Shown here piece by piece: positions 14,757-19,062 of a stretch of DNA of 37,303 bases. Origin of the DNA: Candidatus Acetocimmeria pyornia (lineage in GTDB: Bacteria; Bacillota; Sulfobacillia; UBA3575); assembly GCA_004367365.1 (NCBI GenBank), contig SESX01000005.1, forward strand, positions 1-37,303, given 5' to 3'. Made by a program: the position numbers and the translations under genes. Below the pieces are notes generated by a model. It saw only the letters and a list, made by a program, of their open reading frames with translations, made no database searches and was not told where the DNA came from. The first letter of the stretch is position 1. Each line of letters opens with the position of its first letter.

Positions 14757-14855
14757 ATTTTACCTTGCCAGGAAGGATGTTTTAGTGTTATGATAAATTT
14801 TGCAGGAAAATATTGACAACTCGGCTTTTGTCAACCGGTGGAAGGGGAGAAACCG

Positions 14856-15950
14856 ATGGAGAAACAAAAAGCCCTTGATATGGCACTGGCCCAAATAGAA
14901 CGGCAGTTTGGCAAGGGGTCAATTATGAGGCTTGGTGAAGTTTCCGCGGCCATGAGCGTGGAAGTGATTCCCACCGGGTCCCTCGAACTAGACCGGGCGC
15001 TAGGCATCGGAGGTGTCCCGAGGGGAAGGGTGGTCGAGATCTTCGGGCCGGAAGCTTCGGGAAAAACCACCGTGGCTCTTCATATCATTGCCGAGGCGCA
15101 GCAGCAGGGAGGTGTGGCGGCCTTTGTCGACGCCGAGCACGCCCTTGATCCTGTGTACGCGCGTCAGGTAGGTGTTGACATTGATAACCTCCTGATTTCT
15201 CAACCGGATACAGGTGAACAGGCCCTGGAGATTACCGAGGCCCTGGTGCGCAGCGGGGCGGTGGACGTGGTAGTCGTGGACTCGGTGGCCGCCCTGGTCC
15301 CGAGGGCCGAAATTGAAGGGGAGATGGGGGATGCACACGTTGGCCTGCAGGCTCGCCTGATGTCCCAGGCCCTTCGGAAACTGACGGCGGCCATTAGTAA
15401 ATCCAGGACAACGGCGGTCTTTATCAACCAGATCAGGGAAAAGGTTGGGGTCATGTTTGGCAACCCGGAGACCACACCGGGTGGAAGGGCCCTAAAGTTT
15501 TATTCTTCGATTCGGATCGAGGTTAGAAAGGCTGAGACCCTGAAGCAGGGTAATGAAGTGATTGGAAGCCGGACCCGGGCCAAGGTGGTTAAGAATAAGC
15601 TTGCCCCACCTTTTAGGAACGCTGAGTTTGACATATTATACGGGAAAGGGATTTCTCGAGAAGGTGGAATCCTCGACCTGGGCGTGGAATTGAAGCTCAT
15701 CACTAAGACCGGGGCCTGGTACTCTTACGGTGATCTGCGGCTTGGTCAGGGCCGGGAAAACGCCCGGGAGTTCTTGGGGAAAAATCAGGAACTGGCTGCT
15801 GAAATTGAGGGGAAGATCCGGGAGGCTATGGCGCCGGTCAATACCCAGCCTGCACTGAAACAAGGTGCAACCGGGGAAAAGTCAAAGGTTGAGGCCAGGG
15901 GTAAGGCTGACCAGACAAAAAAGGTTGACAGGGTCAAGGCAAGGCGGTAA
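14856..15950 (+). CDS. recA: Recombinase RecA
   Basis: [63 protein letters not shown] before ATG at 14856. Confidence 0.98.
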
Positions 15951-15980: not shown

Positions 15981-16454
15981 GTGGAGCCGGGCAAAAGAGG
16001 AGGGGCGCTCGCCTACGCCCTTAAGGTTTTGACTAGAGGACGTAAAACGAGATGTGAGGTTGAAGGCAAGCTTCTGGAAAAGGGATACCCCCGGTCGGCC
16101 GTGGAGGGTGCACTGGCTGACCTTGAGCGCTGGGGCTATATCGATGACTCTTCTTTCTGCCGGGCTTGGCTCGAGGAAAGGTTGCGGCAAAAACCAATGG
16201 GAAGGCGTCGGCTTGCCTTGGAGCTCCTGATGCGCGGGGTAAACGAAACGGTCGTCAAGGAAAGCCTGTCCCGGTATTACCCGGCCGACGAGTATGAACT
16301 GGCCCTGGACGCGGCGCGAAAACGTATTTCGGTGCTCAAAATGGGCGGCAAAGGACCTCTTACTGACCGGGACAGAAGGCGCCTGGCTGCCTTTTTGGAG
16401 CGGCGTGGTTTTGAAACCTGGGTCATTGCCCGGGTCCTGGAAGAAGTGTTTTAG
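15981..16454 (+). CDS. recX: Regulatory protein RecX
   Basis: Immediately downstream of recA; YALKVLTRGRKTRCEVEGKLLEKGYPRSAVEGALADLERWGYIDDSSFCRAWLEERL. Confidence 0.9.
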   Translation: MEPGKRGGALAYALKVLTRGRKTRCEVEGKLLEKGYPRSAVEGALADLERWGYIDDSSFCRAWLEERLRQKPMGRRRLALELLMRGVNETVVKESLSRYYPADEYELALDAARKRISVLKMGGKGPLTDRDRRRLAAFLERRGFETWVIARVLEEVF

Positions 16455-16494: not shown

Positions 16495-16523
16495 TTGACA
16501 CCTTTTGAAAAAAAAGCTAAAAT
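16495..16523 (+). promoter_or_regulatory. Strong sigma-A promoter TTGACA-N17-TAAAAT
   Basis: TTGACA at 16495-16500, 17-nt spacer, TAAAAT at 16518-16523. Confidence 0.7.
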
Positions 16524-16529
16524 AGATCT

Positions 16530-16756
16530 TAGGTTTGAAATCATGACTTGGCTTGCCACTTACCAGGAGGTTTATCGGATAAATAAGTCTGGACGCGCCG
16601 AACTGTCACCGGCGAACTTGTACGCCGTTTGCATATAAAGAGGAGCTGGAACAAGACTAAAGTGCGTCCGTGTGGTGAGGCTCATATTTATCGGATAATT
16701 CAGTAATTACCTTCATCCTCATTGGTTGGAAGCCGAGTCGTATACTCGGCTTTTTT
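16530..16756 (+). ncRNA. Candidate structured ncRNA, possibly 6S-like, between recX and rny
   Basis: Bounded by promoter 16495-16523 and terminator AAGCCGAGT-CGTAT-ACTCGGCTT-TTTT (16730-16756). 5' GACTTGGCTT (16545-16554) pairs with AAGCCGAGTC (16730-16739), apical GGACGC/GCGTCC stem, AT-rich flanks between. No convincing ORF. Confidence 0.5.
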
Positions 16757-16790
16757 CGTTTAACGTTGCGCGTCAGGGGAGGTGAACCAG

Positions 16791-18332
16791 GTGAATGGGA
16801 TTCTAATCGGTCTTCTAGGGCTTGTCATCGGTTCTGTCATTTTTATGGCCGGCTATGTGATGCGCAAGTTCATTGCTGAAGCCAAAATCGGCTCTGCCGA
16901 GGAGGCGGCCCAGCGCATCGTGGAGGAAGCTACCAAGGAAGGGGAGGCCAGAAAAAGGGAGGCCATCCTTGAGGCCAAGGAAGAAGTGCACCGGCTCCGG
17001 AATGACCTGGAAAAGGAAAGCCGTGAACGCCGCAGTGAACTGCACAGGCTGGAGAGGCGCCTCGTCCAGAAGGAAGAAGCCCTCGACCGTAAGAGCGAAA
17101 CCCTGGAAAAGAAGGAAATCAGCCTTATCAAGCAGGAGGAAGAAATCAGAAAAACCAAGGAGGAATTGGACGAGCTCAAGGCCAGGGAGTTGAAGGAACT
17201 AGAAAAGATTTCGGGACTCTCTAGTGATGAGGCCCGGAAATTGCTTCTCAATAACATTGAGAAAGAAATCGAACATGAGGCAGCCGTGATGGTTCGGGAT
17301 CTTGAAGCCAAGGCTAAAGAGGAAGGCGAAAAGAGGGCTCGCGAGATCATCTCCCTGGCTATCCAGCGGTGTGCAGCCGACCACGTGGCCGAAACCACGG
17401 TTTCAGTGGTGGAATTACCCAATGACGAGATGAAGGGTCGTATTATCGGCAGGGAAGGGCGGAATATTCGCGCCCTGGAGACCCTGACCGGTATTGATCT
17501 CATTATTGACGATACGCCGGAAGCGGTAATTCTCTCGGGATTTGACCCCATCAGGCGCGAGATCGCCCGGATTGCCCTGGAGAAGTTGGTGGCTGATGGA
17601 CGCATCCACCCGGCGAGGATTGAAGAGATGGTGGAAAAGGCAAAGCGGGAGATGGACGCCCGGATCCGTGAGGCCGGGGGACAGGCAACTTTTGACACCG
17701 GTGTCCACGGACTGCATCCGGACCTGGTCAAACTGCTGGGGAGGTTAAACTTCCGGACAAGTTACGGGCAAAATGTTTTGAAACACTCCATCGAGGTTGC
17801 TTTCCTTGCTGCGGCGATGGCGGCGGAACTTGGGGTTGATGCCCAGCTGGCCAAGAGGGCAGGCCTCCTTCACGACATCGGCAAGGCTGTCGACCACGAG
17901 GTGGAAGGCCCCCATGTCGCCAGCGGCATCGAGCTCCTGAAGAAATATCGTGAAGCCCCTGAGGTCATTGATGCCATGGCTGCCCACCATGGGGACGTGG
18001 AACCTGCTTCGGTTGAGGCCGTCCTGGTGGCTGCAGCTGATGCCCTTTCGGCTGCCCGACCCGGTGCGCGGCGGGAAACCCTGGAGGCCTACATCAAGCG
18101 TCTTCAGAAACTCGAGGATATTGCGGATTCCTTTGAAGGTGTAGAGAAGGCGTATGCGATTCAGGCCGGGCGGGAAATCCGGATCATGGTCAAGCCAGAA
18201 AGGGTGGATGATACCAGGGCTGCCAAGATGGCCCGTGATATCGTTAAGAAAATAGAGGGCCAGCTTGAGTACCCAGGCCAAATCAAGGTGGTTGTGATCA
18301 GGGAAACCCGGGCGGTCGAGTACGCCAGGTAG
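16791..18332 (+). CDS. rny: Ribonuclease Y
   Basis: N-terminal TM, long coiled coil, KH domain [74 protein letters not shown]. Confidence 0.97.
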
Positions 18333-18543: not shown

Positions 18544-19062
18544 TTGGATAAACATCTGATGGTGAGCAGTAATGTTTCCAAGAGTGTGAGCCTGCTGATC
18601 TCAATTCTAGTGAGATACCCGGAGCTGGGAACAATAAACTACGACCCCAAGAACCATATTTTGAAATTTACCTTTCTCATTGCCAAGCTCATATCTGATT
18701 CGGAATACAGGCTTCTCGAGGAGAAGCTTTCAGCTGGTATCGAGGTTTACCACCAGCTGCGAGGAAGTTCGGATTATGTTTTTAAAGTCAAGACGACCCG
18801 GTTTGGGCGGGTAACGGTAGTTGACATCAAAAGGGATGTTACCACGTTAAGCCAGGAGGAGCTATCCCTCATGATCGAGGTTTTGAGGGAACAATGGGGT
18901 GATGTCCTGGTTGTGGATGAAAACGATGCCGTTTTGGAAGAGGAGTTGTTGATTCAGGAAGAATTAATTGAGGAGATGCTTGAAGATCTCAAGGATGGCG
19001 CCCAGGGCAAGAATTTAATCGCCTTTCGCGAGGAGGGGCGGGTTTTGGTCTTCAATAAGTGA
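18544..19062 (+). CDS. Conserved-looking hypothetical protein between rny and ymdB
   Basis: Good SD (AGGAGGGTGAGAATTG), full ORF with acidic C-terminal region EEELLIQEELIEEMLEDLKDG. Confidence 0.75.
   Translation: MDKHLMVSSNVSKSVSLLISILVRYPELGTINYDPKNHILKFTFLIAKLISDSEYRLLEEKLSAGIEVYHQLRGSSDYVFKVKTTRFGRVTVVDIKRDVTTLSQEELSLMIEVLREQWGDVLVVDENDAVLEEELLIQEELIEEMLEDLKDGAQGKNLIAFREEGRVLVFNK

Follow-up and report, generated by a model that had tools for sequence, protein, structure and literature searches.

A putative terminator/antiterminator leader preceding the ribonuclease Y gene rny in Candidatus Acetocimmeria pyornia and related genomes

RNase Y, which occurs in most Firmicutes, ranks among the main enzymes of mRNA degradation in Gram-positive bacteria; in Bacillus subtilis, it initiates the breakdown of a large share of the mRNA. 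The level of this enzyme must stay balanced, and the self-regulation described for RNase E and for B. subtilis RNase Y proceeds via mRNA decay. In B. subtilis, RNase Y represses its own gene by cutting the rny mRNA within the 5′ UTR and the early coding region (PMC10303841). The sites cleaved by RNase Y preferentially contain G^A in GC-poor sequence (PMC11780869) and have structure downstream (PMC11321564). In Escherichia coli, the level of a major endonuclease, RNase E, is likewise set by the 5′ UTR of its own gene (rne), as discussed in the same publication (PMC10303841); this control relies on stem-loop binding and mRNA decay and not on termination, and the enzyme and the RNA are unrelated to those treated here. 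Transcription attenuators of Gram-positive bacteria are known from the trp/TRAP, pyr/PyrR, T-box, and riboswitch platforms, in which a terminator lies before the ribosome-binding site and an alternative helix takes up the 5′ arm of the terminator.

Here, we describe the rny leader in a 37,303-nt stretch of contig SESX01000005.1 of Candidatus Acetocimmeria pyornia (hereafter called the window; all window features given below are on the + strand). It shares with the B. subtilis rny 5′ UTR the gene that it precedes, a similar leader length (about 160 nt in B. subtilis), and the presence of regulatory sequence within the 5′ UTR. The B. subtilis system acts through RNase Y cleavage and mRNA decay, and a terminator or antiterminator is not mentioned in the available part of that report (PMC10303841), whereas the anatomy of the window leader points to a control of transcription termination. 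The leader has the terminator and the alternative helix of the trp/TRAP, pyr/PyrR, T-box, and riboswitch systems, but differs from them in that the antiterminator strand is located at the extreme 5′ end and closes a long rod, the interior varies greatly in length, neither an aptamer nor a binding site of a known type is present, and the target is the gene of an mRNA-decay enzyme.

In the window, recA (14838–15950; TIGR02012, 567 bits) is located 5′ of recX (15981–16454; RecX models, best 100 bits, under the curated cut-offs), and rny (16782–18332; TIGR03319, 785 bits) follows. Position 16782 is the mechanically listed start, and the start codon of rny is most likely GTG at 16791; the Shine–Dalgarno sequence GGGGAGGTG occupies 16776–16784. 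Between recX and rny, the boxes TTGACA (16495–16500) and TAAAAT (16518–16523), separated by a 17-nt spacer, form a sigma-70-type promoter that matches 11 of 12 consensus positions; this promoter had been recognized in the preliminary description of this DNA. In 801 nt, two promoter-like sites were found against 0.4 expected. The leader RNA spans 16531–16756, with its 5′ end (about +1) placed from the −10 box and its 3′ end from the terminator. The approximately 226 nt between the promoter and the terminator end hold no convincing gene, in agreement with the earlier reading of about 225 nt devoid of a convincing ORF. The terminator ends 20 nt 5′ of the rny Shine–Dalgarno sequence, and there is therefore no space for a separate rny promoter. 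Because the terminator stands directly before the ribosome-binding site, transcripts from the promoter get to rny only by read-through. rny could also be fed by read-through from recA–recX. On the other side of rny, a 172-aa ORF (18544–19062, +) with no match in NCBIfam lies between rny and a ymdB-like gene for a TIGR00282 metallophosphoesterase.

The intrinsic terminator (16730–16756) is composed of the hairpin AAGCCGAGT-CGTAT-ACTCGGCTT (16730–16752) and a T6 run (16751–16756). Its 5′ arm (16730–16738) is shared with a putative antiterminator rod. GACUUGGCUU (16545–16554) is complementary to AAGCCGAGUC (16730–16739), and in the MFE fold, the helix is lengthened to 12 pairs between the antiterminator 5′ strand AUGACUUGGCUU (16543–16554) and 16730–16741; AAGCCGAGU is common to the rod and the terminator. 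The two structures are mutually exclusive because the terminator requires its 5′ arm. The closing helix is followed by the rod and then by an apical stem. The 5′ strand of the upper rod (16556–16589) is the counterpart of the CUACCAC strand of the relatives, whose helix shows covariation, and the 3′ strand occupies 16685–16729. The AU-rich rod strands are two near-palindromic copies of TTTATCGGATAA (16571–16582 and 16687–16698, the second within the 3′ strand), which pair with each other. The apical arm (16591–16669) is closed by GGACGC/GCGUCC (16591–16596/16664–16669), and its interior differs widely among the relatives. The terminator with its T run, the 5′/3′ closing pairing, the opposing AU-rich strands, the apical stem, and the segment used by both the closing helix and the terminator had been pointed out in the preliminary description, and all of them are confirmed here. 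The energy of the whole fold is of modest significance (z −2.0; 5 of 200 shuffles equally good). The duplex between the leader 5′ end and the terminator 5′ arm, in contrast, is far better than in shuffles (z −5.5), and the computed rod state is better than the terminator state by 5.3 kcal/mol.

A BLAST search of the leader DNA in 61 relatives gave no homology beyond its own genome, and tests of synteny and structure were therefore used. Two sets of rny loci were sampled, one from 80 named genomes (mostly other Firmicutes) and the other from the window's own class (about 70 genomes). A promoter of the type TTGACA-17-TANAAT precedes rny in most of these loci. A terminator, counted when it had at least six perfect pairs and lay within 145 nt 5′ of the rny start region, was found in 62 of the 70 class loci (4.5 expected from shuffles) and in 21 of the 80 named loci (1.4 expected). 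A second promoter-like site between the terminator and rny was seen in 5 of 49 class loci. Among the leaders, the −10 box and the terminator are separated by anything between about 20 nt and more than 400 nt. Four minimal leaders (L079, L061, L014, and L015) have a promoter–terminator gap of about 20–50 nt, which indicates that all versions have the terminator as their core, whereas the rod varies. Identical leaders occur in some class members and named genomes, one of which is labelled Symbiobacterium thermophilum (L081 and L104). RNase Y appears to be missing from one part of the class, family f7, whose genomes (e.g., G006 and G109–G114), near-complete ones included, gave no full rny match and a few weak, short matches.

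Other elements were observed near rny in relatives. In rny leaders of the Clostridium type (L006, L022, L023, L031–L034, L036, L043, L047, L050, and L082), another sequence recurs, AAATACAAATACTGGTTTAGCAT ... ACACCTTTTC-AGCTTTCAT, with no evident terminator; it is apparently a further leader element of rny, unrelated to the one described here. In other clostridial genomes (L008, L009, L016, L040, and L042), a short 5′ hairpin, GATAT-TGGTG-TATC, lies right after the rny promoter. Two matches to the TwoAYGGAY RNA (RF01731) were found on a contig of Peptococcaceae bacterium BRH_c4a (L027, 124–282 and 5736–5893, both on the − strand), away from the rny leader.

The closing rod was analyzed in 51 non-redundant leaders by pairing the first 50 nt with the last 40 nt plus the terminator 5′ arm. 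The duplexes of each leader's own 5′ and 3′ segments had a mean energy of −27.6 kcal/mol compared with −20.8 kcal/mol for swapped partners (sd 0.58), and none of 20,000 permutations was as low. Dinucleotide and mononucleotide shuffles served to control the swap test for a GC-content artefact. With the 5′ segment shuffled so that its dinucleotides were preserved, the combined z value was −11.9; it was −5.4 when the terminator arm was left out and −4.8 for the arm alone. In the class leaders, the partner of the first ~35 nt is the terminator 5′ arm (combined z −6.7); they show no pairing with its 3′ arm (z +0.7) or with the pre-terminator sequence (z −0.3), and pairing of mid-leader segments with the 5′ arm is weak (z −2.2 and −1.4). 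No such arm pairing is seen at 11 loci outside the class (z −0.1), though terminators and rods are present at some of these. The pairing sequences themselves change from leader to leader, as seen in L107 (GGCUUUUGUAC/GUACAAAAGCC) and L106 (GCUCGGUUG/CAGCCGAGU) alongside the window pair, and the arm pairing is also found in L122, L102, and L087. The promoter, rod, and terminator thus recur before rny across the class with altered yet still pairing sequences. In 23 of the 51 leaders, the computed energies of the rod and the terminator differ by no more than 5 kcal/mol. For most relatives, the computation favors the terminator over the rod, which suggests that termination may be the default outcome.

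An alignment of 15 trimmed leaders gave the consensus GGA-A-GGC-T ... CUACCAC ... AUAGAU ... GUGGUAG ... AGCCGAGUCC..UCGGCU-U6. The covariation score of the CUACCAC/GUGGUAG helix and the terminator was 0.259 compared with 0.156 for shuffled alignments (0 of 500 as high), a value biased towards structure because the columns were picked after viewing the sequences; the swap and shuffle tests described above are alignment-free. Shifting the partner by one to three columns lowered the score to 0.04–0.15. Covariation in relatives had been proposed beforehand as a check on the fold, and the outcome favored structure. Of 51 class loci, 16 have AUAGAU no farther than 130 nt from the −10 box, compared with 1.1 expected; some of these loci are closely related to each other. 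For this motif, an unpaired probability of about 0.44 was predicted; the mean lies near 0.34. In the window, the counterpart of the motif is the degenerate variant GUUUAUCGGAUAAAU, which is predicted to be paired, and the segment GTTTATCGGATAAAT (16570–16584) is a candidate contact of RNase Y. A small conserved hairpin formed by AUAGAU was also considered; judged by eye, it suits part of the leaders, but those of the UUUUAUAUAGAU types do not accommodate it, and it was dismissed. The leader interior is poorly conserved in sequence and ranges from tens to hundreds of nucleotides in length, and no large conserved core was seen in the leaders. The sequence GCAAAA-CGA-CTGGTCG occurs in the interior in some class families (L110, L125, L127, and L129, also L063 and L111).

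A covariance model built from the 15 leaders was run over 154 class genomes at E ≤ 0.01. It gave 29 matches in 25 genomes, including genomes outside the training set (e.g., G046, G029, G063, G146, and G021), and 27 of the 29 are directly 5′ of rny. The two remaining matches (G019:C104 and G031) are weak and were taken as chance. When the model was applied phylum-wide, 15 of 24 matches were located before rny; on inspection, the other nine looked like bare terminators, with the remainder of the match within or against coding sequence. The position of the model matches indicates that the element is a cis-acting part of rny and not an independent sRNA gene. We regard the leader as a candidate cis-regulatory RNA family without an Rfam entry.

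The preliminary description had taken this region for a 6S-like noncoding RNA and had named a terminator/antiterminator switch on rny as an alternative. The leader does resemble 6S RNA in its size, its strong promoter and terminator, and its rod with a closing stem, a loose middle, and an apical arm. In the window, the overall rod is present, but the AU-rich strands are paired and no open bubble is evident. RF00013 gave no match at the rny leader, either at the gathering score or at E ≤ 10, and no Rfam family reached its threshold over the window. Scattered low-scoring matches at E ≤ 10 in the leader region (SAM-II, RsaOG, and S15) were far below the gathering scores. The single RF00013 match of the genome is a canonical 6S gene at another locus (G000:C168, 104 bits), flanked by genes that resemble aspS and threonine aldolase when read by eye. 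The negative searches with RF00013, the 6S gene elsewhere, and the linkage to rny argue strongly against the identity of the leader as 6S RNA, and its closing stem, unlike that of 6S RNA, is shared with the terminator. Some bacteria have two 6S RNAs, and a second paralogue of 6S RNA or an RNA of the Ms1 type, bound to RNA polymerase and located before rny by chance, would have the same outline. Such an RNA is highly improbable here, given the linkage to rny, the lack of any Rfam match at the leader position in the rny loci of 20 relatives, and the minimal leaders, which are too short for 6S RNA. The switch on rny, in contrast, is strongly supported by the recurring anatomy and by the pairing and covariation tests.

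The remaining explanations differ in how much of this anatomy they account for. With recX immediately 5′, the terminator might simply end the recA–recX operon and the pairing might be incidental; this is very unlikely, since a promoter lies 5′ of the terminator, there is usually none between the terminator and rny, and the pairing is better than in every swap control. AGGAGG at 16565–16570 would be compatible with translation of a leader peptide, but a start codon at a suitable spacing is absent. Moreover, a ribosome site with an ORF occurs in 5 of 51 leaders compared with 7.6 expected by chance; attenuation by leader-peptide translation was dismissed on this lack of enrichment and has next to no probability. 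A trans-acting, terminated small RNA that shares its promoter with rny, with read-through as constitutive leakage and a merely stabilizing stem, would fit the rod-plus-terminator form common among sRNAs and the long interior at many loci. However, a stabilizing stem needs no specific pairing with the terminator 5′ arm, which would weaken termination, and the interior sequence is poorly conserved while 27 of the 29 class matches lie directly before rny. We consider this explanation unlikely. In a ligand riboswitch or a protein-bound leader, the same switch would be controlled by a different sensor in place of RNase Y. The terminator/antiterminator part fits any sensor, and a short recurrent AUAGAU and a helix are available for recognition, but models of known riboswitch and T-box families did not match the window leader or the leaders of 20 relatives, and without a large conserved core, the interior is too variable for an ordinary aptamer. 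Such a sensor is possible, if somewhat doubtful.

Here, we propose that the RNA made between recX and rny is the 5′ leader of rny and that it probably acts as a transcription attenuator of the terminator/antiterminator type. When the 3′ strand emerges from RNA polymerase, the rod would zip and take the terminator 5′ arm along, which would result in read-through into rny. If the 5′ strand were occupied or removed beforehand, the terminator would form and rny expression would be lowered. The trigger that we prefer is RNase Y itself: by binding or cutting the emerging 5′ strand close to the AU-rich AUAGAU, surplus RNase Y might shut off its own gene. RNase Y would race RNA polymerase on its own leader, and if RNase Y won, no rod would form and transcription would stop before rny. 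This choice of trigger is tentative. A site AUAG^AU near the leader start would suit it, as it resembles mapped RNase Y sites. RNase Y is membrane-bound, and action on nascent RNA within seconds would therefore be demanding.

No report of a terminator or antiterminator in an rny leader was found in the open-access papers searched, and rny is unmentioned in two large structured-RNA surveys. The terminator/antiterminator architecture is of a known kind, but a switch of this kind on rny is apparently undescribed. A conserved rny attenuator would add a second, transcriptional layer to the control of RNase Y, and the leader provides a defined RNA for asking how bacteria sense their RNA-decay capacity. 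If the proposal is true, the leader would be a nuclease-sensing attenuator, in which RNase Y capacity is read out as termination, and would represent a new cis-regulatory RNA family.
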